A program made the position numbers and the translations under genes. Below are positions 5,626-62,346 of a stretch of DNA of 62,692 bases, in pieces. The notes under the pieces are model-generated. The model made no database searches, had not been told where the DNA came from, and saw nothing but the letters and a program-made list of their open reading frames with translations. The DNA is from Actinomyces dentalis DSM 19115. Lineage in GTDB: Bacteria; Actinomycetota; Actinomycetes; Actinomycetales; Actinomycetaceae. Where the stretch lies: NCBI RefSeq assembly GCF_000429225.1, contig NZ_AUBL01000023.1:1-62692 (forward strand), in the 5' to 3' direction. Positions within the stretch are counted from its first letter, which is position 1; each line of letters starts with the position of its first letter.

Positions 5626-6058
5626 GAAGGTTATTCAGCGGGTTCATGGCGGCGTTCTCCTTGGAGCACTTGAATGCCGTTTGACCACCGTCCAACCGTC
5701 GTTCTCGAGGGTGAAATGCGCATCTCGACGCCCGGGGCGCAGCGGCGCCGGGCGCCGCGGTCCGCGAGATCGTCGGGTGACCGCCGAGATCGTCACTTAA
5801 CCCGCGAGCACGTCTGCTAGAGGTACGTGCTCGCGGGTTAAGTGACGATCTCGCGGGTTGAGTGACGATCTCGCGAGTCGGCCGCGTCACGACATGCGAG
5901 ACGCCGTCCCACCATGCGGGATGCGCCGTCGAGGCGAAGCGGGGAGACGCACTCGGACGCCTTCGCAACAACCCTTCGGACGAGGAGGACCCCTCCGAGC
6001 AGATCGCCGCCACAACCTTCATGCTCCATGTCTTCAAAGCCACCCCCGAATAACCTTC
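5626..6058. mobile_element. Family A repeat element, copy 1 (MITE-like)
   Basis: This 433-bp element is bounded by inverted 11-mers, GAAGGTTATTC at the left and GAATAACCTTC at the right. Reverse-complemented, it aligns along its whole length with the element at 23316-23771: the peptide-like end, the block CATGGTGGGACGGCGTCTCG, the 20-bp hairpin array and the end segment AAGGAGAACGCCGCCATGAA. It encodes no transposase, so if mobile it depends on one elsewhere. Whether the terminal repeats are longer than 11 bp is unclear, and no target duplication is convincing here. Confidence 0.7.
5785..5853. repeat. Perfect 29-bp hairpin of 20-bp word W1
   Basis: The arms 5785-5813 and 5825-5853 are exact reverse complements, separated by the 11-base loop CTGCTAGAGGT. 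Each arm contains the 20-bp unit CGCGAGATCGTCACTTAACC in whole or part, and further diverged units flank the hairpin from about 5762 to 5879. The same hairpin with the same loop recurs at 34.66 kb and 62.31 kb. Confidence 0.85.
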
Positions 6059-6405
6059 GAGAGTCCGTCCACTGGAAATCGACATTCCAGAAAAATCTCG
6101 GAATCATGCGGAAAACCCCGAACCCACCCGCAGGAGCGCCCCTGTCCAATGTACAGCACCCCGCCCGGCCCGAGAGGAGCCGCATCGCCCGGGAGCGATC
6201 CTCCGCCAGGCCCCTACCGAGAACCCGGCCCCGCCCGAACTCCGCAGGAGGCCGCCCCGCCGCGCCGATCCCATCCTCCGGGTCGCCGGTTCCGGTGAGA
6301 AAGGCTCGGTAAGATGATAGTCAGCAGCGAGTGGATCCCGCTTACCCGTGAAGGGGACGCCGGTGTTTTCACTCTCGATGGTGAATGGTTCTGAGGAGGA
6401 CGAAT

Positions 6406-6978
6406 ATGGAGGAGATACGGCTGGGGCCGATCGAGTGGGGCGTCGTGACGGCTCACCACCTCTGGGGCATGGGTGTGCGTCTGGAGGAGTCCGGTGATGA
6501 TGGGGTCATCGTCCTGGACTCCATTCACGACGACTTCCTGCGCTGCAACGGGGAGTACTGGCCCGAGATCGGCGAGCGCATCCGGGTGCGCAGGTACATC
6601 TACAATAATAAGGAATTGCGCCTGACCAGCCGGGACAGCGCCATGGAGGGCCTGGTGAACGGGTACGACCCGCCGCGCCAGTACCCGCTCCCGGAGGGGT
6701 TCGGGCCGGTCGAGGAGGGGACGGTCGTCGCCCACCGCGACTGGGGCGTGGAGGTGCGCCTGGACTCCGGGAGGGTCGGGCAATTGCGGGCCCGGCTCAT
6801 GGAGGAGAGCGCCGATCCCTCTCCCGAGGAGCGCTGGCCCGGGATCGGCGAGCGGGTCCGCGTCCGGCCCCTGGGCCTCTGGCCCGACGGCGGCCTGCGA
6901 CTGAGCGGCAGACCCAGCTGCGTGGACCGGATGCCCAGACGCTACCGGTGGCCGGGGAGGCGACCCACCTCAAAGTGA
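6406..6978 (+). CDS. Tandem S1-like (OB-fold) protein, function unknown
   Basis: A 190-residue acidic protein made of two similar halves. Each has GxVxAHxxWGxxVRL near its start (GVVTAHHLWGMGVRLEE and GTVVAHRDWGVEVRLDS), then WPxIGERxRVR and a final strand ending in LRLTSR or LRLSGR. That pattern is the S1/OB nucleic-acid-binding fold, as in S1-like immunity or ribosome-associated proteins. The start at 6406 is chosen because GAGGAGG lies seven bases upstream; an in-frame ATG at 6385 lacks such a site. It stands alone between two repeat-rich gaps. A role in RNA binding is inferred from fold only. Confidence 0.7.
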   Translation: MEEIRLGPIEWGVVTAHHLWGMGVRLEESGDDGVIVLDSIHDDFLRCNGEYWPEIGERIRVRRYIYNNKELRLTSRDSAMEGLVNGYDPPRQYPLPEGFGPVEEGTVVAHRDWGVEVRLDSGRVGQLRARLMEESADPSPEERWPGIGERVRVRPLGLWPDGGLRLSGRPSCVDRMPRRYRWPGRRPTSK

Positions 6979-7312
6979 GACGCCCCGGCGTGAGACGCCC
7001 CGCCGCCCGGCCCCGAGACCCGACTCATGACGCCTGGCGGGGCGAAGGCGCTTCTTCTCCTGGGATGACGAACCTTTCCCGCCAGAAGGATCCCGGGGCC
7101 GGCCGGGATCGGCGTGGTGAGGATCTGGAACGGAACAAGACGGCGAGGTCCCGCGCGCCGCCCTCACCCTCGCATCCGCCGTCCCCGTCACTGCGTCGAT
7201 CCGGGCCGTCGGGCTGCGGCTCCTGATGAGGCGGGCTTATTTTTCTCACGGGAGCGGACTCCGTTATACCGCTCCCCGGGAATGCGTCCAGACGCCCTCC
7301 GAATAGCCCTCC
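6979..7312. other. Non-coding stretch
   Basis: No gene is supported. Short segments here (CCAGAAGGATCCCGG, GGAACGGAACAAG) resemble bases 18005-18030 beside the second repeat family, so this stretch may be a decayed left part of that family's copy at 7313. Confidence 0.4.
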
Positions 7313-7470
7313 GACTTACGTAATGCGAGTTCAGTGCGACGGAATCCACCCCGGCTCGCACGGTGCGAGCTCAGCGCGACAGAATCCACCTGCGCTAGAT
7401 CCGCGCCAGCCCATCTCGCACAATGCGAGCCCAGATGACATCACCAAAACGATCCCCCGGGGGTCGTCCC
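7313..7470 (+). repeat. Family B repeat, copy 1
   Basis: About 158 bp with the order shared by three copies in the window: CGTAATGCGAG, a second palindrome CTCGCACGGTGCGAG, a third CTCGCACAATGCGAG, then GATGACATCACCAAAACGA and a C/G run. The copies differ by roughly a fifth of their bases but keep the palindromes and the spacing. The strong conservation of the palindromes suggests protein-binding or hairpin function. Confidence 0.7.
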
Positions 7471-7500
7471 GGTGCGGTATGCCACTGGGCCTGCGGCCTG

Positions 7501-7593
7501 CGTCTGCTACGCTCCTTCACCCTCTGCTGTACGAGAAAAACGAGCGTAGCGAAGGGTGAAGGGGCGTAGCAGCGGAAAAGGGGCGTAGCAGAC
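7501..7593. repeat. W3 word array upstream of phoH
   Basis: GTCTGCTACGC at 7502 pairs with GCGTAGCAGAC ending at 7593; between them the unit AGGGTGAAGGGGCGTAGCAG occurs in inverted orientation at least twice (CTTCACCCTCTGCTG on one side, GAAGGGTGAAGGGGCGTAGC and GGAAAAGGGGCGTAGCAG on the other). Units are 19-20 bp apart. The same word recurs at 34.5 kb. Here it lies 123 bases before the phoH -10 and might influence it. Confidence 0.7.
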
Positions 7594-7715
7594 GATCCGG
7601 TGCGGCTCCTCACACGGCCCCGGCCGCTCTTCCGCCGAGCCGTCCCTAAGGCGCCCGCTGGGCCGGCGCGCGCCCGAACCCCGACACGCTCGGATGATGG
7701 ACGGCGGCGAGCCGC

Positions 7716-7721
7716 TAGGAT
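7716..7721 (+). promoter_or_regulatory. -10 element of phoH (leaderless)
   Basis: TAGGAT followed by seven bases and ATG at 7729. This places the transcription start at the start codon and selects this ATG over earlier in-frame starts. Confidence 0.6.
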
Positions 7722-7728
7722 CGGGGCG

Positions 7729-9035
<1,307 letters not shown>

Positions 9036-9039
<4 letters not shown>

Positions 9040-9494
9040 GCACCGAGGTCAACAACGAGACCGGGGTGGCCATCGACGCCGCCGAGTTCGCCGCCCTGGC
9101 CGACCACGTCCTGCGCGTCATGCACGTCAACCCGCGCGCCGAGCTGTCCATCCTCTTCATCGACCCCGAGCCCATGGCCGAGCTCCACGAGCGCTGGCTC
9201 GACCTGCCCGGCCCCACCGACGTCATGAGCTTCCCCATGGACGAGCTGCGCCCGGGCACCCCCGACCACGAGACCCCAGCCGGGACCCTGGGCGATATCG
9301 TGGTCTGCCCGCAGGTCGCCGCCAAGCAGGCCCTCCAGGCCGGTCACAGCGCCGTCGAGGAGATGCTCCTGCTGACCACCCACGGCATCCTCCACCTCCT
9401 GGGCTACGACCACGCCGAGCCGCAGGAGAAGGAGGAGATGTTCGCTCTCCAGCGCACCCTCCTGCTCACCTTCCTGGCCCAGAGGGGCGCATGA
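9036..9494 (+). CDS. ybeY: Endoribonuclease YbeY (16S rRNA maturation)
   Basis: A 152-residue metalloenzyme needed for 3'-end maturation of 16S rRNA and ribosome quality control. The zinc site is visible as [11 protein letters not shown] at residues 116-126 (three His ligands), preceded by the family motif DVMSFPMDE around residue 62. Length is normal for the family. It is translationally coupled on both sides (ATGA overlaps with phoH and with the next gene), the usual actinobacterial order. No anomalies are seen. Confidence 0.97.
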
Positions 9495-10768
9495 ACGGCG
9501 CACCGGTCCTCGCCCTCGTCGTCGCCGCGGTCCTCGTCCTGGTCTACGGCGCGCTCCTGTCCGCCTGCGAGGCCGCCCTGACCCGCATGACCCGGGCCGC
9601 CGCCGAGGACCTGGTCCAGGACGGGCGCCGCGGGGCCCGGCGCGTCCTGGATCTGGCCGAGCGCCGCACCCAGGTCCTGGGGTCGGTGGCCGCCGTGCGC
9701 GTGGCCGTGGACATGCTCGCCGCCGTGCTGCTCACGCTGGCCGTGGCCGGGCTCGTCGACCGCTGGTGGGCGGCCGGGCTCATCTCCGTCGCCCTCAACG
9801 CCGTCCTGCTGGGCCTGGTCGTGGGCATCTCGCCGCGCTCGGTGGGCCGGCGCAACCCCGACGGCGTCCTGCTGGCCCTGTCCGGGGCGGTGGCGGCGGT
9901 CGACAACACGCTGGGGCGCCCGTGGCGCTGGATCGAGTCCCGCTACGGGCGCGCCTCCGCCCTGACCGACGCCGAGGCGCGCGCCGAGGTCACCGAGGAC
10001 CTGCGCGAGATGATCGACGAGATCGGCGAGGCCGAGACCATCGAGGACGAGGACCGCGAGATGCTGCGCAGCGTCGTCGAGCTGGGCCAGACCCTCGTGC
10101 GCGAGGTCATGGTCCCGCGCACCGACATGGTGACCATCGACGCCCGCAAGCCCGCCTCGGCCGCCATGAGGCTGTTCATCCTCTCCGGCTTCTCCCGCGT
10201 GCCCGTGGTGGGGGAGGACGCCGACGACGTGCGCGGCATCGTCTACCTCAAGGACCTGCTGCGGCGCCTGGACGCCCACCCCGAGCACGCCGACCGCCCG
10301 GTGGACTCCTTCACCCGCGAGCCCGTCTACGTCCCCGAGACCAAGGCCGCCGACGACCTGCTGCGCGAGATGCAGACCGACCACGTCCACATGGCGCTGG
10401 CCGTCGACGAGTACGGCGGCATCGCCGGCCTGGTCACCATGGAGGACCTGCTGGAGGAGGTCGTCGGCGAGCTGACCGACGAGCACGACCCCGCCGAGCC
10501 CGAGGTCGAGGACCTGGGCGGGGGAGTGCTCCGGGTGCCCGCGCGCCTGGGACTCGACGAGCTCGGCGAGCTGTTCGGCCTGGAGATCGACGACGACGAC
10601 GTCGACACCGCCGGCGGCCTGCTCGCCAAGGCCATCGGCCGGGTCCCGCTGCCCGGGGCGAGCGGGGACGTGCAGGGCCTGCGCATCGTCGCCGACGAGG
10701 CCACGGGCAGGCGCCGCCGGGTCACGAGCCTGCTGGTGAGCCGAGCCCCCGCCGAGGGGACCGGCTGA
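9491..10768 (+). CDS. CNNM/CorC-type transporter with CBS domains
   Basis: A 425-residue membrane protein with the standard order: an N-terminal CNNM (DUF21) membrane domain with three or four spans ([26 protein letters not shown] onward), two CBS domains opening at [16 protein letters not shown] (about residue 203) and closing with [23 protein letters not shown], and a C-terminal CorC/HlyC domain. Relatives take part in magnesium/cobalt efflux. It overlaps ybeY by four bases. The gap to era holds a 20-bp direct repeat (CACCGCCACTACGACACCAC at 10828 and 10864). Confidence 0.93.
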
Positions 10769-10895
10769 GCCGCCCCGCGCCCCGCCCGGCCGAGCCCGGG
10801 CCGCGCCGCCCGGCCGAGCCGCACCGCCACCGCCACTACGACACCACCGCGGCCATACCGCCGCACCGCCACTACGACACCACTTGAGGACGGTC

Positions 10896-11921: not shown

Positions 11922-11936
11922 CGAGGACCGCGCCCG

Positions 11937-13930: not shown

Positions 13931-16900
13931 ATGCCGACACCGCTTCCGCAGCCCCCCGCCACGTCCCCCGAGCGCGACGCCCAGCGCGCGTGCCCCGACG
14001 AGCTGTGGGAGCTCGGCGCCCGCGCCGTCGAGCGCGCCCGCCGGTGGGTGGAGGAGTCCGCCGACGAGCCCGCTTCGCGCAGCGCCGAGCTGCTCTCGCG
14101 CATCCTGGCCGACCCGGACGGGCTGGAGTTCACCACCCGCTTCGTCGACGACGTCGTGCGCCCCGCGGACCTCGACGTCGCCGGGGCGGCCCTGGCCCGC
14201 ATGGCGGCCGGGCGCCGCTCCTTCCTGCCCGGGCCCCTGGCCGCCGCCCTGGGCCTGGGCGGGGCGGCCTCGCGCCTGGCCCCGCGCGCCGTCGCCTCCG
14301 CGGCCCGCCGCGTCTTCCGCGGCATCGTGGGCGACCTCGTCGTCGACGCCACCGACAAGGGGCTCGGCCCTGCCCTGGCCCGCCTGCGCGCCGACGGCAA
14401 CCGCCTCAACGTCAACCTCCTGGGGGAGGCGGTTCTGGGGGAGGCGGAGGCCGCCCGCCGCCTGGAGGAGGTCTCCCGCCTGGTGTCCCGCGACGACGTC
14501 GACTACGTGTCCGTCAAGGTCTCGGCCGTCACCGGCCCCCACAACCCCTGGGGGTTCGAGGAGGTCGTCGCCCACGGCGTGGAGGCCCTCAGCCCCCTGT
14601 ACCGCCTGGCCCGCGACCACGGCACCTTCCTCAACCTCGACATGGAGGACTACAAGGACCTGGACCTGACCATCGAGGTCTTCACCGCCGTCCTCTCCCA
14701 GCCCGACCTGGCCGACTACGGGGCCGGCATCGTCCTGCAGGCCTACCTGCCCGACTCCCCGACGGCCATGGAGCGACTTCAGGCCTGGGCGGCCCGGCGC
14801 GTGGCCGACGGCGGGGCGCCCATCAAGGTGCGCCTCGTCAAGGGCGCGAACCTGTCCATGGAGAGGGTCGACGCCGAGATCCACGGCTGGGAGCCCACCA
14901 CCTGGCCCACCAAGCGGGCCACGGACACCAACTACAAGCGGATGCTGGAGCGGGCCATGACCCCCGAGCGCACCCGCGCCGTGCGGCTGGGCGTGGCCGG
15001 CCAGAACCTGTTCGACATCGCCTTCGCCGTCGAGCTGCGCGCGGCCCGCGGCCTGGAGGAGGGCGGGGCCGTGGAGTTCGAGATGCTCTCGGGCATGGCC
15101 ACCGATCTGCAGACGGTCGTGCGCCGCGAGGTCGGCCACCTCCTGCTCTACGTGCCGGTGGTGGACCCGGGCGAGTTCGACGTCGCCATCTCCTACCTGG
15201 TGCGCCGCCTGGAGGAGAACGCGGCGCCGGAGAACTTCATGTCCGGGGTCTTCGACATCGCCTCCGACCCGGCCGTCTTCGACCGCGAGTGCGACCGCTT
15301 CCTGGCCTCCCTGGCCGACGTCGACCCCGACGCCCCCCTGCCCGGGCCCAACCGCGCCCAGGACCGGCTCGCCGAGGCGGCCGCCGGGCCCGGCGAGATC
15401 GCGGGCACCGCCTCCGAGCGGGCCCGCCGCCCCTTCGCGTCGACCCCCGACTCCGACCCGGCGCTGGCCGCCAACCGCCGGTGGGCGCGCGACATCGCCG
15501 CCTCCGTGCCCGGCTCGACCCGCGGGGCCGAGGCGGTGCGCGCATCCGCGGAGTCCCTGGCCGGGCCCGACGACGTCGACGCCCTCGTCGCGTCCCTGGC
15601 GGGGGCGAGCGCCGCCTGGCGGGGGCGGGGCGCCGTCGAGCGCGCCGCCGTCCTCCAGCGGGTCGGCGACGTGCTGGCCGCCCGGCGCGGCGAGCTCATC
15701 GAGGTGGCGGCCGCCGAGACCGGCAAGACGATCGACCAGGCCGACCCGGAGGTCAGCGAGGCCATCGACTTCTGCCGCCACTACGCCGAGCTGTCCCTGC
15801 AGCTGGAGGACCCGACCTTCATGTGCTCGTCCCGCTTCGAGCCCGTGGAGGTCACGGTGGTGGCCTCCCCGTGGAACTTCCCGCTGGCCATTCCCGCCGG
15901 CGGGGTCGCCGCGGCCCTGGCCTCGGGCTCGACGGCGGTCCTCAAGCCCGCCCCGCCGGCGCGCCGCTGCGCGGCCGAGCTCGTGCGCGCCTTCCACGAC
16001 GCGGGCGTGCCCGAGGAGGTTCTGGCCCTGGCGGCCGTCGAGGACGGGGAGGTGTCCCGCCACCTGGTCGTCCACGACGGGGTGGGGCGGGTCATCCTCA
16101 CCGGCTCCTACGACACGGCCCGCCTGTTCCGCTCCTGGAGGCCGGACATGCGCCTGCTGGGGGAGACCAGCGGCAAGAACGCCATGATCGTCACCCCCTC
16201 GGCGGACCCGGACCTGGCGGTGCGCGACGTGGTCTCCTCGGCCTTCGCCCACGCCGGCCAGAAGTGCTCGGCCGCCTCGCTGCTCATCCTCGTGGGCTCG
16301 GCGGGCCGCTCGCCGCGCATCCCCCGCCAGCTGGTGGACGCCGCGAGCTCGCTGCGGGTCAAGGCGCCCTCCCACCTGGACTCCCAGGTCGGCCCCGTCG
16401 TCGTGCCCGACGACCCCAAGGCCCTGCGGGGCCTGACGCGCCTGGGGGAGGGCGAGCACTGGGTGCTGACCCCCGAGCACCTGGGCGGTGGCCTGTGGCG
16501 CCCGGGCATCCGCGTGGGCGTGACGCCCGGCAGCGAGTTCCACCTCACCGAGTACTTCGCCCCGGTGCTGGGCGTCATGCGGGTGGACACGCTCCAGGAG
16601 GCGATCGAGGCCGTCAACGCCACCGACTACGGGCTGACCTCGGGCCTGCAGACCCTGGACGCCGACGAGCTGGCCGTGTGGCTGGAGGGCGTGGAGGCCG
16701 GCAACCTCTACGTCAACCGCTCCATCACCGGCGCCATTGTGCGCCGCCAGCCCTTCGGCGGCTGGAAGCGCTCGGCGATCGGCTCGACGACGAAGGCCAG
16801 CGGCCCCTCCTACCTGCTGGGCCTGGGGGATGTCGTGCCCGCCGGGCGGGGCGGGGGCCGCCCGCCGGTCGGCTCGGACCTGCGCGTGCGCCTGAGCAGC

Positions 16901-17512
16901 GGGGTCGGCGCCCTGTACGACGCCGTGCGCTCCGGCCTGGGCCACGACGACGCCGCCTTCCTCCACGAGGCGCTGCTGGCCGACGCCCGGGCCTGGGAGA
17001 GCACCTACGGGCGGGGCCGGGATGTGACCGGTCTGGCCTGCGAGCGCAATGTGCTGCGCTACCGGCCCGCGACGGCGGTGGTGCGGGCCGAGCCGGGCAC
17101 GAGCCCGGCGGACCTGGTGCGAGTCCTGGCCGCGGGCGTGCTCGCCGGCGGGACGATCGGCCTGTCGCTGGCGGAGCAGCCCCCGGCCGGGCTGCGAGGC
17201 GCCCTGCTGGACGCCGGGGTGGACCTGGACATCGAGGCCCCGGCCGTGTGGGAGGCCCGTCTGGCGGACCTGGGCGCCTCGGGCGAGCTGGGGCTGCGGG
17301 TGCGCATTATCGGCCCGCGCCGCCAGAGCGGCGCCGAGCGCTGGCGGGAGGCGAGCCGGGCCACCTCCGGCAGTCCCGACGTGGCCCTGTACACCGGGGC
17401 CGTGACCGGCAACCCGCACAGCGAGCTCCTGCCCTTCGTGCGCGAGCAGTCCGTGACGGTCACCGCCCACCGCTTCGGCACCCCGCTGGACCTGGCGGCC
17501 GGGCTGCTGTGA
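13931..17512 (+). CDS. putA: Bifunctional proline dehydrogenase / P5C dehydrogenase PutA
   Basis: A 1193-residue enzyme that oxidises proline to glutamate in two steps. The proline dehydrogenase barrel covers roughly residues 100-470 (VKVSAVTGPHNPWGFE, LNLDMEDYKDL, VLQAYLPDSP, KVRLVKGANLSMERVDAEIHGW). The aldehyde dehydrogenase domain covers about 550-1010, with VVASPWNFPLAIPAGG and the catalytic Cys779 in HAGQKCSAAS. About 180 further residues form the C-terminal part seen in other actinobacterial fusions. There is no N-terminal ribbon-helix-helix, so it lacks the autorepressor domain of enterobacterial PutA. It stands alone, 119 bases from the hydrolase gene. Confidence 0.94.
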   Translation: MPTPLPQPPATSPERDAQRACPDELWELGARAVERARRWVEESADEPASRSAELLSRILADPDGLEFTTRFVDDVVRPADLDVAGAALARMAAGRRSFLPGPLAAALGLGGAASRLAPRAVASAARRVFRGIVGDLVVDATDKGLGPALARLRADGNRLNVNLLGEAVLGEAEAARRLEEVSRLVSRDDVDYVSVKVSAVTGPHNPWGFEEVVAHGVEALSPLYRLARDHGTFLNLDMEDYKDLDLTIEVFTAVLSQPDLADYGAGIVLQAYLPDSPTAMERLQAWAARRVADGGAPIKVRLVKGANLSMERVDAEIHGWEPTTWPTKRATDTNYKRMLERAMTPERTRAVRLGVAGQNLFDIAFAVELRAARGLEEGGAVEFEMLSGMATDLQTVVRREVGHLLLYVPVVDPGEFDVAISYLVRRLEENAAPENFMSGVFDIASDPAVFDRECDRFLASLADVDPDAPLPGPNRAQDRLAEAAAGPGEIAGTASERARRPFASTPDSDPALAANRRWARDIAASVPGSTRGAEAVRASAESLAGPDDVDALVASLAGASAAWRGRGAVERAAVLQRVGDVLAARRGELIEVAAAETGKTIDQADPEVSEAIDFCRHYAELSLQLEDPTFMCSSRFEPVEVTVVASPWNFPLAIPAGGVAAALASGSTAVLKPAPPARRCAAELVRAFHDAGVPEEVLALAAVEDGEVSRHLVVHDGVGRVILTGSYDTARLFRSWRPDMRLLGETSGKNAMIVTPSADPDLAVRDVVSSAFAHAGQKCSAASLLILVGSAGRSPRIPRQLVDAASSLRVKAPSHLDSQVGPVVVPDDPKALRGLTRLGEGEHWVLTPEHLGGGLWRPGIRVGVTPGSEFHLTEYFAPVLGVMRVDTLQEAIEAVNATDYGLTSGLQTLDADELAVWLEGVEAGNLYVNRSITGAIVRRQPFGGWKRSAIGSTTKASGPSYLLGLGDVVPAGRGGGRPPVGSDLRVRLSSGVGALYDAVRSGLGHDDAAFLHEALLADARAWESTYGRGRDVTGLACERNVLRYRPATAVVRAEPGTSPADLVRVLAAGVLAGGTIGLSLAEQPPAGLRGALLDAGVDLDIEAPAVWEARLADLGASGELGLRVRIIGPRRQSGAERWREASRATSGSPDVALYTGAVTGNPHSELLPFVREQSVTVTAHRFGTPLDLAAGLL

Positions 17513-18384: not shown

Positions 18385-18861
18385 GAAGGTTGTTCAGCGG
18401 GCGTCCGGTCGCATTTCCAGGAGGCGATATTATGAGGGCTGTTCGGGGAGTGGTTCTGAGTGCGTTCCCCGGGTGTGATACGAGGGGTTGTCAAGGGAGC
18501 TGGGGTGCGGGGCCGGTCGTGATGACCCGCCCGAGTCGCCTCCGGGCGTGCCGGGGGGAGTCGGGCGCGACGGGATCGGTGGGCCGGTCGTCGGGGGCGG
18601 ACCGGGTGGGGCGGGGGCGGTTCCGGCGCTCCGCCCCGACGGCACGTCCCGCATGGTGGGACGGCGTCTCGCATGCCGTGACGCGGCCGGCCCGCTTGGA
18701 CCACTTGCGTGCGGTTGGACCAACTTAAATGCCGTTGGACCACCTGGTTCACGAAATACGGTGGTCCAACGGAACGCAAGTGGTCCAACCGCATTTAAGT
18801 GGTCCAACGGCACATAAGTGGTCCAGGGAGAATGCCGTCATGATCCCGCTGAATAACCTTC
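18385..18861. mobile_element. Family A repeat element, copy 3
   Basis: Bounded by GAAGGTTGTTC (one mismatch) and GAATAACCTTC; both ends extend as CAGCGGG/CCCGCTG. It carries the shared block CATGGTGGGACGGCGTCTCG near 18652 and the end motif GGGAGAATGCCGTCATGATC. Its internal array uses word W2 instead of W1. It fills almost the whole gap between the antitoxin gene and the stretch before the CPBP gene. Open frames inside have no recognisable product. Confidence 0.65.
18694..18825. repeat. W2 word array (19-bp units, inverted)
   Basis: GTGGTCCAACCGCATTTAA and close variants start at 18761, 18780, 18799 and 18818, an exact 19-bp period. The facing arm (18694-18748) carries the reverse complement units CTTGGACCACTTGCGTGCGG, TTGGACCAACTTAAATGCCG and TTGGACCACCTGG. 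The whole would fold into a long hairpin. Single copies of the word occur at 5661-5700 and 23709-23740 near the end of other family A elements. Confidence 0.8.
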
Positions 18862-22760: not shown

Positions 22761-23133
22761 CTCCGAGTCGTGAAGACGGCAGGACCTTGAAGGTTATTCA
22801 GGGGTGGTTGAAGACGTAGAGCGGGAGCGCGGCGGTGATTGTCTGCTCGAATGGGCTTTTCTCACCGGGAGCGGCGGGCTCGTAGGTCGGGGTCGTCATG
22901 ATGGTGCGGGCGGGGCTCCTGGGGCGGTCCGGGGGCGGGGGCGTGTCCGAATCCGCTGCAAAGGCGCCCCGGGCTGGGATCGGCCGCGAGAAGAAGCGCG
23001 GAATATCAACGATTCTCTTCCGGTGCTTCGGCGGGATCCGGGCCTTTGCAACAGATTCGGACAACCGGTGCCGCCGCGGATCCCCGGGAGGGGCGCCGCG
23101 GGTCGGACGGCGACCACGGCGGGAGCCCCCGGC

Positions 23134-23228
23134 GCCGAGACGTGCACTTCGCACTCGAGAGTGCAGTTCCAACCGTTGTTCTCGAAGGCAAAACGCACGT
23201 CTCGAGGGCAAAATGCGCATCTCGACGA
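23134..23228. repeat. W4 word array (20-bp units, inverted)
   Basis: TCTCGAAGGCAAAACGCACG at 23180, TCTCGAGGGCAAAATGCGCA at 23200 and TCTCGACG at 23220 give an exact 20-bp period. The facing arm is CGAGACGTGCACTTCGCACTC then GAGAGTGCAG, with GTTCCAACCGTTG in the loop. A closely similar array with almost the same loop is at 50424-50500. Confidence 0.75.
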
Positions 23229-23315: not shown

Positions 23316-23771
23316 GAAGGTTATTCGGGGGTGGTTTTGAAGACGTGGAGCGTGAAGGTTGTGGCGGCGGTCTGCTCGGGCGGGTCCTCCTCGTCCGGAG
23401 GGTTGTTGCGAAGGCGTTCGAGTGCGTCTCCCCGCTTCGCCTCGATAGCGCATCTCGCATGGTGGGACGGCGTCTCGCATGTCGTGACGCGGCCGGCTCG
23501 CGAGCACGTCACTTAACCCGCGAGATCGTACCTTAACCCGCGAGATCGTCACTTAACCCGCGAGCACGTCACTCTGGCAGACGTGCTCGCGGGTCAAGTG
23601 ACGTGCTCGGCGGTTACCCGGCGATCTCGCGGACCGCGGCGCCCGGCGCCACTGCGCCCCGGACGCCGGGACGCGCATCTCGCCCCCGGGAACGACGGTC
23701 GGACCGCCGTGGTCCAATCGCACGCAAGTGGTCCAAGGAGAACGCCGCCATGAACCCGCTGAATAACCTTC
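23316..23771. mobile_element. Family A repeat element, copy 2 (inner)
   Basis: A 456-bp element with perfect 11-bp terminal inverted repeats, GAAGGTTATTC and GAATAACCTTC. It aligns with copy 1 (5626-6058, opposite orientation) along its length. The bases flanking it are ATA on both sides, a possible 3-bp target duplication. It encodes no transposase. The inner array has four W1 units in a row before the turn. Confidence 0.75.
23499..23633. repeat. W1 word array (four 20-bp units plus inverted arm)
   Basis: Units start at 23499, 23519, 23539 and 23559 (CGCGAGCACGTCACTTAACC and variants with GATCGTACC or GATCGTCAC). After ACTCTGGCAG the sequence turns back as ACGTGCTCGCGGGTCAAGTG, ACGTGCTCGGCGGTTACCCG and GCGATCTCGCGG. 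An almost identical array occupies 50259-50393. Confidence 0.85.
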
Positions 23772-34490: not shown

Positions 34491-34604
34491 GGTCTGCCAC
34501 GTCCCTCCACTCCTCTACTACGCCTCTTCGCCCTCTGCTGCGCCCCCTTTTCTCGTACAGTGGAGGGTGAAGAAGCGTAGTAGAGCGAAGGGGGCGTAGC
34601 AGAC
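34491..34604. repeat. W3 word array between convergent genes
   Basis: GAGGGTGAAGAAGCGTAGTA and GAGCGAAGGGGGCGTAGCA follow one another (20- and 19-bp steps) and end in GAC. The facing arm reads GTCTGCCACGTCCCTCCACT and CCTCTACTACGCCTCTTCGC, with CCCCCTTTTCTCGTACAGT around the turn. The turn resembles that of the array before phoH (TGTACGAGAAAAACG). Confidence 0.75.
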
Positions 34605-34616: not shown

Positions 34617-34748
34617 CGCGAGATCGCCGGTCGACTCACGAGATCGTCACTTGACCCGCGAGAACGTCTGCTAGAGGTACGTGCTCGCGGGTCAAGTGAC
34701 GTGCTCGCGGGTTACCCGACGATCTCGGCGGTTACCCGGCGATCTCGA
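34617..34748. repeat. W1 word array between convergent genes
   Basis: CGCGAGAACGTCTGCTAGAG and GTACGTGCTCGCGGGTCAAG form the turn (same loop as at 5814), flanked by ACGAGATCGTCACTTGACC on one side and GTGCTCGCGGGTTACCCGAC, GATCTCGGCGGTTACCCGGC on the other. Units keep the 20-bp step. Confidence 0.8.
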
Positions 34749-50206: not shown

Positions 50207-50565
50207 CGGTCGTTCCGCATGGTGGGACGGCGTCTCGAATATCGTGACGCGGCCGGTCCGCGAGCACGTCACTTAACCCGCGAGATCGTACCTTAACCCA
50301 CGAGCACGTCACTTAACCCGCGAGCACGTCACTCTAGCAGACGTGCTCGCGGGTTAAGTGACGTGCTCGGCGATTACCCGGCGATGTCGCGGACCGCGGC
50401 GCCCGACGCCGTCACGCCCCAGGCGCCGAGACGTGCATTTTGCATTCGAGAGTGCAGTTCCAACCGTCGTTCTCGAGTGCAAAATGCACATCTCGGCGAG
50501 GAGGGCGAGAAGGGGGGCTGGCCCCGCCCCGAGAACCTGTCGGCGAGAACGACTCAATAACCTTC
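50207..50565. mobile_element. Family A element, copy 5 (left end missing)
   Basis: The right end CAATAACCTTC at 50555-50565 matches the terminal repeat with one change, but no left GAAGGTTATTC was found, so it is truncated. It contains the block CATGGTGGGACGGCGTCTCG (50218), a W1 array with units at 50259, 50279, 50299 and 50319 and its returning arm, and a W4 array (50424-50500, TCTCGAGTGCAAAATGCACA at 50471). Confidence 0.65.
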
Positions 50566-54214: not shown

Positions 54215-54220
54215 TAGCAT
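54215..54220 (+). promoter_or_regulatory. -10 element of ABC-F gene (leaderless)
   Basis: TAGCAT followed by seven bases and GTG at 54228. The last two bases overlap an ATG that would otherwise look like the start. Confidence 0.55.
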
Positions 54221-54227
54221 GACGGCC

Positions 54228-55886: not shown

Positions 55887-56097
55887 CGGCCCCGCCCGGC
55901 GGCGCGGGCCGGCCGCCCGCTTGACGTCTCGCGGGCCGGCCGCCCGGCTCGACCTGTCGGGCGGGGCGGCGCCCCTTCCGCGGGGGAGGCGCCCCGCTTC
56001 GCAGTCGAAGGCGTCGGCAGTGCCCGGCGGGCCCTCCCCGCGGGGGAGGCGCGCGGGCGGTGAGTGCCGTCACGCCTGGGCCCGCCGTGCGACGACG

Positions 56098-56103
56098 TAG
56101 GGT
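56098..56103 (+). promoter_or_regulatory. -10 element of erpA-like gene
   Basis: TAGGGT, with the start codon 74 bases downstream behind an AAGGAGAAA ribosome site, so this is a leadered transcript. Confidence 0.45.
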
Positions 56104-56177
56104 GGGAGCAAGTCGTCCCCCGCGGGTGTTCGGCTCGCCGGGACCACGAGGTCCGCACATGACTCAAGGAGAAAGAC

Positions 56178-56579: not shown

Positions 56580-56652
56580 GCCGGCCCGCAGGTCCGCACC
56601 CGCCGCCACCCGCATCCCCGTCAACCCGCACCCGTTGTCGCAAGGAGACCAC

Positions 56653-57597: not shown

Positions 57598-57698
57598 GCC
57601 CCGGGGCGCCGGTGACCGCCTGCGTCACGACATGCGGACGTCGTCCCAAGACGGCGGGCCGTCCCCCGCGTCTCCGGCGGGCCCTCCGAGGTGAAAAA

Positions 57699-57820
57699 TG
57701 GCGCCCTGGGAGGATCGTTCCGCTTCGCAGCCGGCAGTTGCCCACAAAGAACCGCGGAATCACGCGGAAACCGATGAGCGCGTCGGATGCGTCGGAGCGA
57801 ACGATCCTCCCAGGGCGCCA
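57699..57820. repeat. Inverted repeat, 22-bp perfect arms, between convergent genes
   Basis: TGGCGCCCTGGGAGGATCGTTC at 57699-57720 is matched exactly by its reverse complement at 57799-57820 (arms written here in part: GGCGCCCTGGGAGG). The 78-base interior contains AACCGCGGAATCACGCGGAAACC, which resembles bases 6092-6116. It separates the FKBP and SOD genes and may end both transcripts, though the loop is long for a terminator. Confidence 0.6.
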
Positions 57821-57882
57821 AAAACCGGCGATGGTCGGCGGCGGCCGGGTGCTGGCGAGCGCCGGGCGCCGGCGGTTCGGCG

Positions 57883-58506
57883 TCAGCGGACGATGAGCCC
57901 CGGGGTCCGCGAGGTCGCCGCGGCCAGGCGCTCGCCGGCGTCCTGCCAATTGGCGATGTTCCAGATGGCCTTGACGTAGTCGGCCTTGACATTGAGGTAG
58001 TCGAGGTAGAAGGCGTGCTCCCACATGTCGACCTGGAACAGCGGGATGGTGCCCACGGGCACATTGCCCTGCTGGTCGAACATCTGGAAGGTCACGAGGC
58101 GCCCGGAGACGGAGTCGTGGGCCAGGACGGCCCAGCCGGAGCCCTGGATGCCCAGTGCGGCCGCGGTGAACTGCGCCTTGAAGGCGTCGAAGGAGCCGAA
58201 GGAGTCCTTGATGGCCTCGGCGAGATCGCCCTCGGGCTCACCGCCGCCGTTCGGGGACAGGTTCTTCCAGAAGATCGAGTGGTTGATGTGCCCGCCGAGG
58301 TTGAAGGCGAGGTTCTTCTCGTGGAGGTTGATGGCGGCGTGGTCGCCGGCCTCGCGGGCGGCCTGCAGCTTCTCCAGGGCGGCGTTGGCGCCGGTGACGT
58401 AGGCGGCGTGGTGGCGGTCGTGGTGGAGCTCCATGATGCGCCCGGAGATGTGGGGCTCGAGCGCGGCGTAGTCGTAGGGGAGCTCGGGGAGCGTGTACAC
58501 GGACAT
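57883..58506 (-). CDS. sodA: Superoxide dismutase (Mn/Fe type)
   Basis: A 207-residue enzyme that converts superoxide to oxygen and peroxide. The N-terminal helices give the first metal ligand ([14 protein letters not shown], His28), and [15 protein letters not shown] gives the second. The C-terminal domain holds the last two in [17 protein letters not shown]. Which metal is used cannot be decided from this. GAAAGG precedes the ATG, and TAACCT about 75 bases upstream may be the -10. No signal peptide is present. Confidence 0.96.
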
Positions 58507-58642
58507 GTGGCTGCCTTTCGTGAGGGAGGCGGCCGCCGCCTGCGACGGCCGCGATGTCCCGGCAATAGGTTAGGACTGAAGTCCCGGTCGCGATTGATCC
58601 TAGGTGCTCATCGGTGGAACCGGAACCGTGACACCGTGCGAT

Positions 58643-58648
58643 TACACT
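58643..58648 (+). promoter_or_regulatory. -10 element of receiver-like gene
   Basis: TACACT 49 bases before the start codon; the ribosome site is GGAGGA. Confidence 0.45.
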
Positions 58649-58696
58649 GACCGCAGAACCGCGCTCTGCCGCCCGCCCGCTCGCACCGGAGGATCC

Positions 58697-59143
58697 ATGA
58701 CCGACCAGCCCGATGACGACGACTACCTCCAGCTCCTCGTCTTCTCCGACGACGCCTCCGTGCGCGAGGAGGTCAAGACCGGCGTCGGACGCCGCCCCGC
58801 CAAGGGCCTGCCCCTGGTGGCCTGGACCGACGCCGCCACCGCCGAGGGCGTGCGCCTGGCCATCAAGGACCGCGAGGCCGAGGGCAAGCCGCCCTTCGAC
58901 GCCCTGGTCCTGGACGCCGAGGCCAAGAAGCTCGGCGGCATGGGCCTGGCCCACGAGCTCTACATCGAGCTCGACGCGCGCCCGCCGGTGGTCCTGCTCA
59001 CCGCCCGTCCCCAGGACGACTGGCTGGCCGCCTGGGCCAGGGCCGAGGCCGTCGTGCCCCGCCCGCTCGACCCGCTGGCCCTCCAGGAGGGAGTGGCGGG
59101 GGCCCTGACCGCCCGGCCGGGGACCGTCGTCCCGGCCGGCTGA
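58697..59143 (+). CDS. Receiver-like single-domain protein
   Basis: A 148-residue protein with the strand/helix pattern of response-regulator receivers. LQLLVFSDDASVREEV gives the acidic pair, FDALVLDAEAKKLGGMGLAH the phospho-Asp position, and PPVVLLTARPQDDWLAAWAR the Thr/Ala switch. The invariant Lys is replaced: EAVVPRPLDPLALQEG has Arg where Lys-Pro is usual. No output domain follows, and no histidine kinase is nearby. It may be a degenerate or kinase-independent receiver. The ATG follows GGAGGA by six bases. Confidence 0.7.
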   Translation: MTDQPDDDDYLQLLVFSDDASVREEVKTGVGRRPAKGLPLVAWTDAATAEGVRLAIKDREAEGKPPFDALVLDAEAKKLGGMGLAHELYIELDARPPVVLLTARPQDDWLAAWARAEAVVPRPLDPLALQEGVAGALTARPGTVVPAG

Positions 59144-59260
59144 GCCGGCCCATCGTGCTCGCCGCGCGGGACCGTCGGGGCCGACGGCGGCGCCGTCATC
59201 GGCCGAGAGGGGCTCGCGCTCGCCGCGGGCGGCCGTCGGGGCGGCCGTCGTCCGCGCTCC

Positions 59261-59340
59261 GGGCCCGCATCATCCGCGGTCTGGATCCGCATTGTCCGCG
59301 GCCCGGATCCGCGGTCCGGCCCCGCATTGTCCGCGGCCCG
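59261..59340. repeat. Short tandem G/C repeat
   Basis: CCGCATCATCCGCGGTCTGG, CCGCATTGTCCGCGGCCCGG and CCGCATTGTCCGCGGCCCG follow each other with short insertions, an imperfect ~20-bp repetition of the CCGCGG palindrome. It lies in the gap between the convergent receiver-like and nuclease genes. Confidence 0.5.
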
Positions 59341-59359
59341 CCCCCGGCCGCCACCGTGG

Positions 59360-61186
59360 TCAGCCGACGGCGTCGATAATGCGCCGGTGGCGCGCCGCGG
59401 CGCCCACGGGCCAGCTCAGGCGCTCCAGCACGCGGGCGGCGCTCTCCTGTCCGCCGTCGACCTCGACGATCCGGGCGCCCGCGTCCAGTGCCCAGTCCGC
59501 CAGCAGGAGCGTCTCCTCCACGCCGGCGGCCGCCCCCACCCGCGACGGCGGGGCGACGACCTCGGCGGTCGCCCGCAGCGCCCTCACGGCCGGGCGCGGG
59601 TCCGCCCCGGGCGGCGTGATCGCGGAGCCGGCCAGGCGCCCCCAGCGCACGGCCACGAGCTCCCAGCCGCCGCCGGGCCGGCGTCGGGCCGCGATCAGGT
59701 GCGGGCAGGCCAGCAGCGGACGGGCCTTCTCCGCCCGGCAGGCGGCCAGGAGCAGGGACCGCAGCCGCGCCGTCCACATCCCCGCCTCCTCGAAGCGCTC
59801 GGCGGCGGCGAGGGCGGAGATGCGCTCCAGCAGCGGGAGCGCCACGAGGTCCACCCGCCCCGACAGGGCGAGCCGGACCGCCTCGGCGCCGTCGGGGATC
59901 CCGGTCGCGGCGCCGCCGTCGGGGACTTCGGCCTCGGCGCCGTCAGAGACCCCGGCAGTTGCCCCGGTGACGGCGCCCGCGGAAGCCCCGGCGTCACCGG
60001 GCCCCGCGGCCGCGGCGCCGCCGTCGGGGATCCCGGCGCTGGCGGGCCCCGCGGTCCGGGCGCCCGGGCCGTCCCAGGGGTGCAGCCCGAGCGCGGACTC
60101 CACCGCCCGCCGGGCCTGGGCGAGGGCGGCGCGCGAGGGGAAGGGGCCGACTGCGCCGTCGGCCTGCGCCACGGTCAGCACGGTCGTGGCCGCCAGGCGC
60201 GGCCGGGGCCCGCCCACCGGGCGCAGCCAGGGCCGGCTGCGCGGGGAGCGCGAGCGGCGGTTGACCGGGGGATCGAGTTCGGCGATCAGGCGCAGTTCGC
60301 GCACCCGAGCCTCGATCTCGGTGGGGGTGGGGATCGCCCGCACCTGCACGGTCGTGTCAAGCATATTCGCTATTCGTGAACGCTTCTCCGCGGCCGTGAA
60401 GTAGGAGCGGACCCGCCTGCGCAGGTCGACGGCGCTGCCGACGTAGAGGACCTGGCCGGCGGCGGAGAGGAACTGGTAGACGCCCGGGGAGGAGGGCAGA
60501 CCGTCGGCCAGGCGGCTCTTGGCCCGGCGCCGCGCGGGGACGGGGTCGGCGGCGGTGGCCAGGTCCTCCAGGTGCGTGACCCCCAGCGGCGCCAGGACCT
60601 CCAGGGCCGCGTGCAGGACGTCGACGGTGGCGCGGGCGTCGCCCAGGGCCCGGTGGGCGGGGCGGATGGGCGAGCCCACGAGGGCGGCGAGCGTCCCCAG
60701 CTTGTGGTCGGGCACGTCCGCGCGGCTCCAGGCCCGCCGCGCCAGGCCCAGCGTGTCGAGGACCGTCGGCTCGCTCCAGCCCAGCCCGAGCGCCCGCGCG
60801 GCGCCGCGCAGGTGGCCGACGTCGAAGCGCGCGTTGTGGGCCACGAGCACGGTGGACTCCCCGTCCAGGCGGGCCCAGGCGAGGAAGGCGGACAGGGCCT
60901 CGCCCACCGGCGGGGCGCCGGCGACCATGGCGTTGGTGATGCCGGTGAGGACGGTGATCTGGGCGGGTATGGCGCGGCCAGGGTTCACCAGGGTCGACAT
61001 TTCGGACTCGACGGCGCCGCCGCGCACCCGCACCGCCCCGATCTCCGTAATGGCGTCGGCGCCGGGCGGCCCGCCGGTGGTCTCCAGGTCGACGACGACG
61101 AAGACGACCTCGCTCAGGGGCGTGCCCATCTGGGCGAAGGAGGCCTGCACCCCGGGTCCGGGCGGCGAAGGTGCGGGCGAGACCAC
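59360..61186 (-). CDS. DEDDh exonuclease / GIY-YIG (UvrC-like) fusion nuclease
   Basis: A 608-residue fusion. Residues ~25-195 are a DEDDh 3'-5' exonuclease like DnaQ: VVVDLETTGG (first Asp-Glu), VLVAHNARFDVG, and HRALGDARATVDV. Residues ~225-310 are a GIY-YIG endonuclease like the UvrC N-terminus (SSPGVYQFLSAAG, LYVGSAVDLRRRVRSYF). The rest resembles the UvrC middle region, with an inserted Ala/Gly/Pro repeat near residues 375-425. Such fusions are known in actinobacteria and are thought to act in DNA repair. The leaderless GTG start follows TAACCT by six bases; plsC diverges from it. Confidence 0.9.
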   Translation of the reverse strand: MVSPAPSPPGPGVQASFAQMGTPLSEVVFVVVDLETTGGPPGADAITEIGAVRVRGGAVESEMSTLVNPGRAIPAQITVLTGITNAMVAGAPPVGEALSAFLAWARLDGESTVLVAHNARFDVGHLRGAARALGLGWSEPTVLDTLGLARRAWSRADVPDHKLGTLAALVGSPIRPAHRALGDARATVDVLHAALEVLAPLGVTHLEDLATAADPVPARRRAKSRLADGLPSSPGVYQFLSAAGQVLYVGSAVDLRRRVRSYFTAAEKRSRIANMLDTTVQVRAIPTPTEIEARVRELRLIAELDPPVNRRSRSPRSRPWLRPVGGPRPRLAATTVLTVAQADGAVGPFPSRAALAQARRAVESALGLHPWDGPGARTAGPASAGIPDGGAAAAGPGDAGASAGAVTGATAGVSDGAEAEVPDGGAATGIPDGAEAVRLALSGRVDLVALPLLERISALAAAERFEEAGMWTARLRSLLLAACRAEKARPLLACPHLIAARRRPGGGWELVAVRWGRLAGSAITPPGADPRPAVRALRATAEVVAPPSRVGAAAGVEETLLLADWALDAGARIVEVDGGQESAARVLERLSWPVGAAARHRRIIDAVG

Positions 61187-61192
61187 GTGGGA

Positions 61193-61202
61193 AGGTTAGA
61201 CT
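61193..61202. promoter_or_regulatory. Overlapping divergent -10 elements
   Basis: On the minus strand TAACCT (61193-61198) serves the nuclease gene; on the plus strand TAGACT (61197-61202) serves plsC. They share two base pairs, so only one polymerase can occupy the site at a time. Confidence 0.55.
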
Positions 61203-61293
61203 CGACGGGGCGACGTTTCCAGCGCCCCTCCCCGCCGCCGCCCCTGGTCGGCGGGGCCGCCCCGATAAGAGCGCACAGAGCACAGGAGGTCCC

Positions 61294-62223
61294 GTGGGAT
61301 ACCGAGGTATCAAGGCGGCCGTCGGCCCTGCGATGGAGATGCTCTACCAGCCCTGGATCCGGGGCGAGGAGAACATCCCCGACTCGGGGGCGGCGATCCT
61401 CGCCTCGAACCACCTGGCCGTCATCGACTCCTTCTTCCTGCCGCTGCTCATCGACCGCGAGGTCGCCTTCATCGGCAAGTCCGACTACTTCACGGGCAAG
61501 GGGATCAAGGGGTGGGCCGTCAAGCGCTTCATGACCACCGTCGGCACGATCCCCGTGGACCGCTCGGGCGGGAAGGCCTCCCAGGCGGCCCTGCAGGCCG
61601 GCATCGACCGGCTGCGCGCCGGGGAGCTGTTCGGCATCTACCCCGAGGGCACGCGCAGCCCCGACGGGCGCCTCTACCGGGGCAAGACGGGCGTGGCCCG
61701 CATCGCCCTGGCCACCGGCGCGCCCGTGATCCCGGTGGCCATGATCGGCTCCAACCTGGCCCAGCCGATCGGCCAGGCCCTGCCCTCGACCCGCCACCGC
61801 GTGGGCATCGTCGTCGGCGCGCCCCTGGACTTCTCCCGCTACAAGGGCCTGGAGAACGACCGCTTCGTTCTGCGCTCGATCACCGACGAGATCATGTACT
61901 CCCTCATGGCCCTGTCCGGCCAGGAGTACGTCGACCTGTACGCCGCGGACGTGAAGAAGGCCGTGGACGCGGAGAAGAAGTCCGTCGACGAGGTCGTCGC
62001 GCAGATGCTCGCCGACCAGGCCGCCAAGCGCCCGGCCGCCGCGCCCGTGGAGGCGCCCGGCGGCCGTCCCGCGCCCGACGTCGAGGTCCCGGTTCCGCCC
62101 GAGCCGGAGGAGGCCGAGGCGGGGGATAACGGGGCGCAGGGGGCCGAGGCGGAGGATGCCGAGTCCGCCGAGTCCGCCGACGGCGGCGCCCTTCCTGAGC
62201 AGATCGAAGAGGGCGTGGACTGA
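61294..62223 (+). CDS. plsC: 1-acyl-glycerol-3-phosphate acyltransferase
   Basis: A 309-residue membrane-associated acyltransferase of phospholipid synthesis. The catalytic HxxxxD is NHLAVID (His40, Asp45); the substrate motif is FGIYPEGTRSPDGRLYRGK, followed by VIPVAMIGSN. From about residue 220 a long acidic, Ala/Pro/Glu-rich tail follows, which is probably disordered. The GTG start has AGGAGG seven bases upstream. Its promoter overlaps that of the divergent nuclease gene. Confidence 0.92.
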   Translation: MGYRGIKAAVGPAMEMLYQPWIRGEENIPDSGAAILASNHLAVIDSFFLPLLIDREVAFIGKSDYFTGKGIKGWAVKRFMTTVGTIPVDRSGGKASQAALQAGIDRLRAGELFGIYPEGTRSPDGRLYRGKTGVARIALATGAPVIPVAMIGSNLAQPIGQALPSTRHRVGIVVGAPLDFSRYKGLENDRFVLRSITDEIMYSLMALSGQEYVDLYAADVKKAVDAEKKSVDEVVAQMLADQAAKRPAAAPVEAPGGRPAPDVEVPVPPEPEEAEAGDNGAQGAEAEDAESAESADGGALPEQIEEGVD

Positions 62224-62247
62224 GCCCTGGCGCTCGGCGGAGGACTC

Positions 62248-62346
62248 CGCGAGATCGCCGGGTAACCCGCGAACACGTCGGGTAACCGCCGAGCACGTCA
62301 CTTAACCCGCGAGCACGTCTGCTAGAGGTACGTGCTCGCGGGTTAA
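62248..62346. repeat. W1 word array, cut by an insertion sequence
   Basis: The units CGCGAGATCGCCGGGTAACC, CGCGAACACGTCGGGTAACC, GCCGAGCACGTCACTTAACC and CGCGAGCACGT are spaced by 20 bp, then comes the loop CTGCTAGAGGT and the returning arm ACGTGCTCGCGGGTTAA. At that TTAA the returning arm stops and IS DNA begins. Confidence 0.8.

Follow-up and report, generated by a model that had tools for sequence, protein, structure and literature searches.

The 62,692-nucleotide stretch of contig NZ_AUBL01000023.1 from Actinomyces dentalis DSM 19115 (the window, meaning the whole stretch of DNA that was analysed) holds arrays of short words, repeated in tandem and folded back into hairpins, which raise the question of what kind of element they represent and whether their words are read by a protein. 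They were compared with arrays of a same-genus genome, G199, and of a third species, G174.

Inventory and folding of the arrays

The words and fold-backs were located where a preliminary description of this DNA had put them, but the arrays, real as they are, number ten and not nine: W1 is present five times, W2 once, and W3 and W4 twice each (Table 1). Direct repeats with a step of 19-21 bp, one or more per array, occur in 9 of the 10. The exact 19-20 bp step claimed earlier is thus seen in most arrays, the exceptions being one W3 step of 21 bp (34494 to 34515) and the W4 hairpin at 50424, whose arms are single words and which lacks a direct repeat. In W4 at 23134 and W3 at 7501, just one of the arms holds two words. 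Folded as single-stranded DNA, all ten arrays beat the mean of their shuffles (z -2.27 to -12.26), and shuffles folding equally well numbered 0/200 for nine arrays and 4/200 for W4 at 23134. In 462,692 bp of the own genome, a sample whose stretches were partly picked for containing W1, clusters combining a fold-back with a direct repeat had a period of 19 or 20 in 26 of 39 cases, compared with 0 of 4 in one Markov-resampled copy. The intergenic placement agrees with rough gene calls, which, having a coding fraction of only 0.67, miss genes.

By eye, W1 to W4 are mutually unrelated in sequence. A further word of G199, CATGAGGACGGGGGTTGACC, has 12 of 20 positions in common with W1 in a hand alignment, and some words may therefore be diverged relatives. 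Of the proposal that unrelated words share one architecture, the architecture holds and extends to relatives (the W2 type of G174 and the additional G199 word), while the unrelatedness is a judgement by eye that CATGAGGACGGGGGTTGACC tempers.

Table 1. Repeat arrays, carrier elements and insertion sequence of the window.
Feature	Position	Remarks
MITE copy of the GAAGGTTATTC family with W1, opposite orientation	5626..6058	Flanks GTCGG/CGAGA, no duplication
W1 array	5763..5875	Left, two full words and core; right, two words; loop CTGCTAGAGGT
W3 array	7504..7592	One left word; two right words at 19 bp
MITE with ends GAAGGTTRTTC	18385..18861	Holds W2 and a W5-like repeat; flanked by CCTAG/CCTGG; missing from G199, clean junction
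W2 array, 19-bp words	18696..18825	Within MITE 18385-18861
W4 array	23134..23228	Two right words at 20 bp; W4 hairpin also at the orthologous place of G199
MITE copy of the GAAGGTTATTC family with W1	23316..23771	Perfect 5-bp flank duplication CATAG
W1 array	23499..23631	Three left and two right words; loop CACTCTGGCAG; within MITE 23316-23771
W3 array	34494..34603	One additional left word in the G199 ortholog
W1 array	34617..34748	Two left and three right words; G199 ortholog has one fewer right word
W1 array	50259..50391	Three left and two right words
W4 hairpin	50424..50498	One word in each arm, without direct repeat
W1 array	62248..62346	Three left words; right arm broken by IS1380-type end at TTAA (62346)
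IS1380-type insertion sequence, start	62347..62692	Runs off contig end; 87% identity over 403 bp to a G199 insertion sequence typed IS1380

Spacing, divergence and pairing of the words

The periodicity persists in other copies, as the earlier account required of a distinct design. Neighbouring W1 boxes lie exactly 20 bp apart in 169/170 and 108/111 cases (together 277/281), or in 76/78 and 45/48 with a stricter W1 pattern, and the boxes of G174 lie 19 bp apart in 192/208. Each word consists of a conserved box and a fast-changing variable half, and adjacent words differ at 358/1520 and 191/900 (W1) and 828/3648 (G174) positions, or 21-24%. This rigid spacing hints at a putative word-reading protein; it could also result partly from tandem duplication instead of selection. 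The suggested step of two helical turns, lining up bound proteins on one face of the DNA, fits only roughly: by simple arithmetic with 10.5 bp per turn, a 20-bp step makes 1.90 turns and a 19-bp step 1.81, so that each word of a 19-bp array is rotated by about 69 degrees relative to the one before.

With regard to pairing between arms, the innermost core dinucleotides were complementary in 63/88 (shuffle mean 42.5, maximum 59 in 2000 shuffles) and the innermost word tails identical in 46/81 (shuffle mean 36.5, maximum 46); first-word dinucleotides matched across arms in 41/81, no more than in shuffles (mean 34.9, maximum 50). Farther out, the words of one W1 arm do not match those of the other, second words being identical in 1/20. 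Elements of G174 carry two different words, one per arm, around a 21-bp loop, their A-word and B-word arms being fixed relative to the loop in 40/44 by script and 42/44 by eye, and unpaired in the variable half. In W1, unlike G174, loop orientation is independent of arm type (46 vs 42). Since the outer W1 words mismatch and the G174 arms differ, conservation does not extend to a long perfect hairpin, and the idea that the step matches a dicing product of a transcribed hairpin finds no support; Bacteria are not known to possess Dicer.

Spread among genomes and changes at orthologous sites

With up to two mismatches, W1 gave 117+99 matches in the own genome and its reversed control pattern 0+1. 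The W1 double word was found in 2 of 200 family genomes, the own and G199, both belonging to the 37 genomes of the same genus, and the word sequence is missing from the other 35 of these 37. The family in G174 is related to W2 and of the same design, and its W2-type double word matched 135+152 times with up to two mismatches, compared with 14+16 for the control. Across the order, the W2 double word occurred in 3 of 248 genomes, two of them with a single match each; as the backward W2 control itself matches four genomes, these single matches look like chance. Among the matches listed, array positions are dispersed over the G199 and G174 chromosomes. No match to W1 or W2 arrays was obtained in the plasmids, viral contigs and genome contigs searched, collections that may omit records of the own genome or a very near one.

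At two-sided orthologous W1 pairs of the own genome and G199 (flanks 90-98% identical), word number differs in 4/4, in whole words, and the loop is inverted in 1/4. The loop is opposite in 4/7 one-sided pairs, which are less safe as orthologs, and in W4 of L147/L208 one word is additional and the loop is inverted. Of the ten window arrays, nine were compared by eye with G199: four were absent, four present, and one gap held a different W1 copy. At L014, L139, L146, L147 and L150, no clean W1 insertions were seen relative to G199, the gaps being replaced by CRISPR arrays, genes and other repeats. In an alternative reading, the whole-word changes, and the seven-fold ones, could reflect local evolution only.

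Carrier elements, insertion sequences and search for a driver

Several arrays lie inside a carrier MITE, and arrays also lie inside each other's mosaics. The carrier element GAAGGTTATTC behaves as a MITE, with terminal inverted repeats, target duplication and empty site: its 5-bp duplication is perfect in 7/22 copies and has at most one mismatch in 17/22 (shuffled right flanks, mean 0.83 perfect, maximum 5 in 5000 shuffles), and the place of the W2-carrying MITE at 18385-18861 is cleanly empty in G199. The W1 array itself, on the other hand, lacks both fixed ends and target duplications. At the borders of 58 elements the mean best direct match was 4.24, against 4.18 when shuffled, and a direct match of at least 6 bp was found in 8/58; in its own right, W1 is thus at most a candidate mobile element.

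The arrays are also used as landing sites by insertion sequences, different ones entering different words (small numbers from a partly biased sample). In G199, IS4- and IS1380-type elements separate two W1 arms that lie 3.2 kb apart; the single core-less arm of G174, L403, ends by eye at an insertion sequence. Separated arms flanking a gene were not seen among the arrays, nor was an autonomous element with words at both gene ends among the W1 matches listed in G000 and G199 and the PF00665 insertion sequences. The ends of 20 PF00665-type copies with mapped borders are not the words, in a search that covered this type only and left ten further loci without resolved borders. PF01797 (Y1_Tnp, RAYT-type) was found in 0/2 genomes (G000 and G199) and in 5/14 control genomes, and the IntI integrase TIGR02249 appeared only below cut-off in both genomes, as in 14/14 controls; integron and REP/RAYT readings were consequently dropped. 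The searches made found no word-reading protein. As to a match with a described family, there is no Rfam match at gathering threshold within the window and no RAYT-type gene in the two genomes, while several arrays do lie in a genuine MITE. The observation in the preliminary description is in sum partly confirmed and its interpretation partly supported.

Interpretation and alternatives

The best reading of the arrays is that they are members of several non-autonomous small interspersed repeat families of Actinomyces sharing one modular plan, a short loop between two inverted arms of one to about six tandem 19- or 20-bp words each. The words are probably recognised by an unlinked protein: the boxes would be bound by a DNA-binding protein, with a trans-acting recombinase or transposase, or else a protein since lost, as the likeliest candidate. 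Slippage or unequal exchange would alter word number, and template switching between arms would give rise to loop inversion and matched innermost words, in elements presumably without demonstrable host benefit. According to the available part of one report, template switching homogenises inverted-repeat arms and inverts spacers (PMC8604942). The G174 arms are not homogenised, which counts against template switching alone, since it predicts homogenised arms. Taken together, non-autonomous modular repeats with words as predicted protein sites, remodelled by slippage and template switching, are considered reasonably likely. More tentative, and doubtful as it stands, is a class of minimal mobile or nucleoprotein elements at the level of the genus, whose 19-20 bp words an unlinked protein family would read in trans. 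Such elements would have two arms (A/B), their word number would tune affinity and their variable half would co-evolve with the protein, giving species dialects of one architecture.

Ordinary MITEs, in which transposon ends with several transposase sites were joined by internal deletion and are moved by a full-length insertion sequence elsewhere, would account for the inverted arms, the high copy number, the unequal left and right ends that the G174 A/B arms resemble, and the arrays within a MITE having 5-bp duplications. This origin is nevertheless rather unlikely: W1 borders lack target duplication, arm word number ranges from 0 to 4 (W1 parse), the mapped PF00665-type ends are not words, and no separated arms were seen to enclose a gene, the 3.2-kb case of G199 being interrupted by insertion sequences and the lone arm of G174 ending, by eye, at one. 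Binding sites of a host protein distributed over the chromosome and kept for the host (nucleoid organisation, silencing or regulation) would agree with the rigid spacing, the conserved box beside a fast variable half, and the dispersed positions among the matches listed in G199 and G174. Such a role appears improbable given that presence varies at orthologous gaps of close species, that the word sequence is missing from most same-genus genomes and that arrays are carried in MITEs and each other's mosaics.

Dispersed transcription terminators or 3'-end mRNA structures are very improbable. The folds are strong, and of 30 placed W1 arrays 11 lie in convergent gaps, 16 in codirectional and 3 in divergent ones, but this tilt is modest, in raw counts, relative to all gaps of at least 120 bp (69 convergent, 173 codirectional, 58 divergent), and the variable half is unpaired between G174 arms. 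Integron attC-like sites or REP elements of a RAYT share imperfect hairpins and high copy number with the arrays and can hardly be credited, considering the PF01797 and TIGR02249 results for the two genomes above.

If a protein reads the words of these modular repeats, Actinomyces would provide a bacterial example of a multi-site DNA code differing from species to species under a constant architecture, and would offer a route to ask how BOX- or REP-like elements spread without a dedicated transposase. If nothing reads them, the list of modular bacterial repeats is still extended to Actinomyces. The ortholog pairs document, as a natural record, how words are gained and lost and loops inverted.

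Comparison with known systems

No earlier description of such Actinomyces arrays was found in the open-licence literature searched. MITEs, as presented in the accessible portions of PMC3049150 and PMC10969869, share inverted ends and 5-bp duplications with the carrier GAAGGTTATTC; fixed ends and target duplications are lacking in the W1 array. Insertion sequences land in REPs (PMC1525189, as far as its available text goes) as they do here, the difference being that in Actinomyces different ones enter different words, in few and partly biased cases. The CGTC-tagged REPs are likewise palindromic repeats without a dedicated transposase, but each is a short, single stem-loop whose loop measures 4-5 bp, and the available part of PMC3733652 does not report tandem words for them.

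REP, BIME and REPIN elements with RAYT, from the available sections of PMC2817692 and PMC3116915, are extragenic palindromic repeats of more than 100 copies with mosaic composites and fast species-specific turnover, and the arrays too are high-copy extragenic palindromic repeats; the earlier REP/BIME analogy is a fair one. They differ in that the two tested genomes lack a Y1 transposase, that each arm holds tandem words and that the Actinomyces word is not, by eye, itself a small stem-loop. The BOX elements of Streptococcus pneumoniae, in the part of PMC3049150 available, are intergenic, dispersed, built of fixed end modules and variable tandem modules, variable in length between strains and thought to be parasitic; variable tandem module number was also found between species here, in all four two-sided W1 pairs. 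In Actinomyces, however, the tandem unit of 19-20 bp occupies each of the two inverted arms that flank a loop and several word families coexist, the likeness noted here being one of layout. On the best reading, the arrays resemble REP, BOX and MITE repeats yet form a distinct modular design, nearest to BOX and BIME.

Distribution of the fold-back arrays

In a genome assembly of 3.53 Mb and 90 contigs, the window makes up contig 19. It also codes for a 1193-residue protein with 72-78% identity to counterparts in many Actinomyces species, which places the source genome in this genus. The fold-back arrays were found, with some exceptions, where the preliminary description had placed them, but its count of nine had to be raised to ten, all of which (10/10) fold better than shuffles. 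Across the own genome (G000), the core word of W1, the word of five window arrays, gave 117 forward and 99 reverse matches at up to 2 mismatches, compared with 0 and 1 for a reversed-pattern control. The W1 double word (up to 1 mismatch) was recovered from 2/200 family genomes, G000 and a second genome of the genus (G199), that is from 2/37 same-genus genomes. Exact scans of genome contigs and viral contigs and BLAST against plasmids, which may have left out near records, returned no array match.

In G174, a third species with a family related to W2, the double box GGTCCAA-N12-GGTCCAA was matched 135+152 times at up to 2 mismatches (control, 14+16). Fold-back clusters of 19-20 bp period amounted to 26/39 in the W1-biased stretches sampled from G000, 12/19 in G199 and 5/7 in G174, with none in 180 kb of a further genome, G168; the same count on one resampled copy each gave 0/4 (G000), 1/1 (G199), 0 (G174) and 0 (G168).

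Positions of the arrays and of associated features (L, sampled loci)
Feature	Position	Remarks
1193-residue protein	window 13931-17512	
W1, W3, W2, W1, W4 arrays	window 5763; 7504; 18696; 23499; 50424	7504, 18696, 23499 and 50424 absent from G199
W4, W3, W1, W1 arrays	window 23134; 34494; 34617; 62248	same place in G199
W1 array	window 50259	G199 gap occupied by different W1 copy
Carrier MITE copies	window 5626-6058; 18385-18861; 23316-23771	W1 (other orientation); W2; W1
Outward AAGGAGAAnnnnnnnATG signal	window 23737-23771; 18825-18861; 5626-5660 (complement)	by eye
IS1380-type ends adjoining a W1 word	window 62347; L104; L230; L008; L085	TTAG at L008
IS1380-type end not adjoining a W1 word	L152	
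CRISPR-like arrays, repeat GTCTCAATGCACCTACAGGTGCGTGGTGCTCCCTGAC	G199 L155; L157; L161; L165; L166; L208; L209; L085	
Repeat with ends like GTCCAAATCTGTTGCAAAGGC	window 22902-23060	also many loci
Further word arrays, 23-bp GTAAGATCTACCGACCTCGGTAC and 19-bp fold-back GGTGCTTCTGCACGGCCCC	G174 L193 12498; L197 11384	

Anatomy and turnover

Parsing yielded 88 distinct W1 elements (53 in G000, 35 in G199), in which each arm holds 0-4 full words of the plan NNCGAGNNCGT-tail, the commonest tails being CACTTAACC and CGGGTAACC; the latter is mainly outermost (54/102 outermost vs 33/152 inner words, the outermost being counted in multi-word arms). The 11-bp loop occurs in either direction (46 vs 42), and conservation drops off within about 5 bases beyond the outermost word (169 arms). 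Neighbouring boxes keep an exact 20-bp step in 169/170 cases in G000 and 108/111 in G199; at the same time, 358/1520 and 191/900 positions, respectively, are different between one word and the next.

For G174, 45 places were parsed, one of them spurious. By script, A-word and B-word arms are fixed relative to a 21-bp loop in 40/44 elements; inspection by eye showed that two more were mis-scored and fit the same order (L385, L400), that L391 has an inverted loop and that L401 is too diverged for an arm call. From 95 A words the consensus is GGTCCAACGGGGGCACAGG and from 99 B words GGTCCAACGGGGCGTGAGC; here the search pattern itself preset the box, and the sorting pattern determined which words count as A or B. 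The spacing is 19 bp in 192/208. The conserved trait is therefore the box, repeated at a constant step in each of the two inverted arms; perfect pairing of one arm with the other is not conserved.

G199 is collinear across the entire window, in blocks mostly of 88-97% identity. Of the nine arrays compared by eye, 4/10 of the window total lie at the same place in G199 and 4/10 are absent. Among 11 candidate W1 orthologs, the 4 with both flanks aligned differ in word number in 4/4 and in loop direction in 1/4; the 7 one-sided pairs, which are less safe, have opposite loops in 4/7. A W4 pair (L147/L208) differs by one extra word and a loop inversion. Arm complementarity in W1 is above shuffles for the core (63/88, shuffle mean 42.5) and weakly so for innermost tails (46/81, equalled by the best of 2000 shuffles); the first-word dinucleotide (41/81; mean 34.9, maximum 50) is not above shuffles, and second words agree in only 1/20. 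Template switching between inverted-repeat arms, described as homogenising arms and inverting spacers (PMC8604942), would explain the core pairing and loop results in W1; it would not explain the stable A/B arms in G174.

Carrier MITE and insertion sequences

A carrier repeat is bounded by GAAGGTTATTC at one end and the complement of this sequence at the other; its copies contain different mixtures of repeats, among them W1, W2 and W5-like ones. Among 22 deduplicated copies, 7/22 have a perfect 5-bp duplication (shuffle expectation 0.83, at most 5 in 5000 shuffles) and 17/22 one with no more than one mismatch. G199 lacks the copy that encloses the W2 array and has a clean junction in its place. 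No target duplication was found for 58 W1 elements outside the carrier. Near one carrier end, a start-like signal AAGGAGAAnnnnnnnATG points outward across that end; a gene beside the landing site might thereby receive a translation start. At one orthologous gap (L153 4621-5093/L173), G000 has the carrier with W1 and G199 a small open reading frame.

In G199, one IS4-type and one IS1380-type element lie within one W1 array, at TTAA. The IS1380-type ends come from a biased sample, most loci having been fetched for W1, and three are close to the end of a contig, so that the ends may outnumber the copies. TTAA sites fall inside W1 words in 41/68 cases in the W1-biased G000 sample and 12/78 in the evenly spaced G199 sample. 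An unbiased PF00665 search placed 6/7 copies of one G199 insertion sequence within a different word array, AAACCGGCGGAAACGACACGCG, and one copy of another inside W3.

Repeats of other kinds were seen alongside. The GTCCAAATCTGTTGCAAAGGC-type repeat stands within the inspected flanks of 7/7 copies of one PF00665 insertion sequence (G199 L128-L134); in most of them, flank duplications of 12-14 bp could be made out by eye. In the roughly 500 kb sampled from G199, CRISPR-like arrays of one repeat stand at eight distinct positions, some of which hold word arrays in G000, and 6/8 have the same leader-like string in the same locus; one relic was seen in G000 (L150) and none of these arrays in 180 kb of G174.

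Proposed mechanism and nearest known elements

Taken together, the arrays most likely behave as non-autonomous modular repeats. As the best explanation we infer a box-binding protein that would read the words, perhaps with an enzymatic role and some benefit, because spacing is rigid while words diverge, a conserved box is joined to a variable half and the design is two-armed. Word number would change by slippage or unequal exchange, loops may flip by template switching, and spread would be partly as MITE passengers.

Membership in REP/RAYT and in attC was tested, and both failed. The nearest described elements are BOX, whose variable tandem modules resemble these arrays (PMC3049150), REP/BIME (PMC2817692) and the CGTC-tagged REPs, reported as lacking a known transposase (PMC3733652); the arrays are a variation on already described kinds of repeat, not a separate new class.
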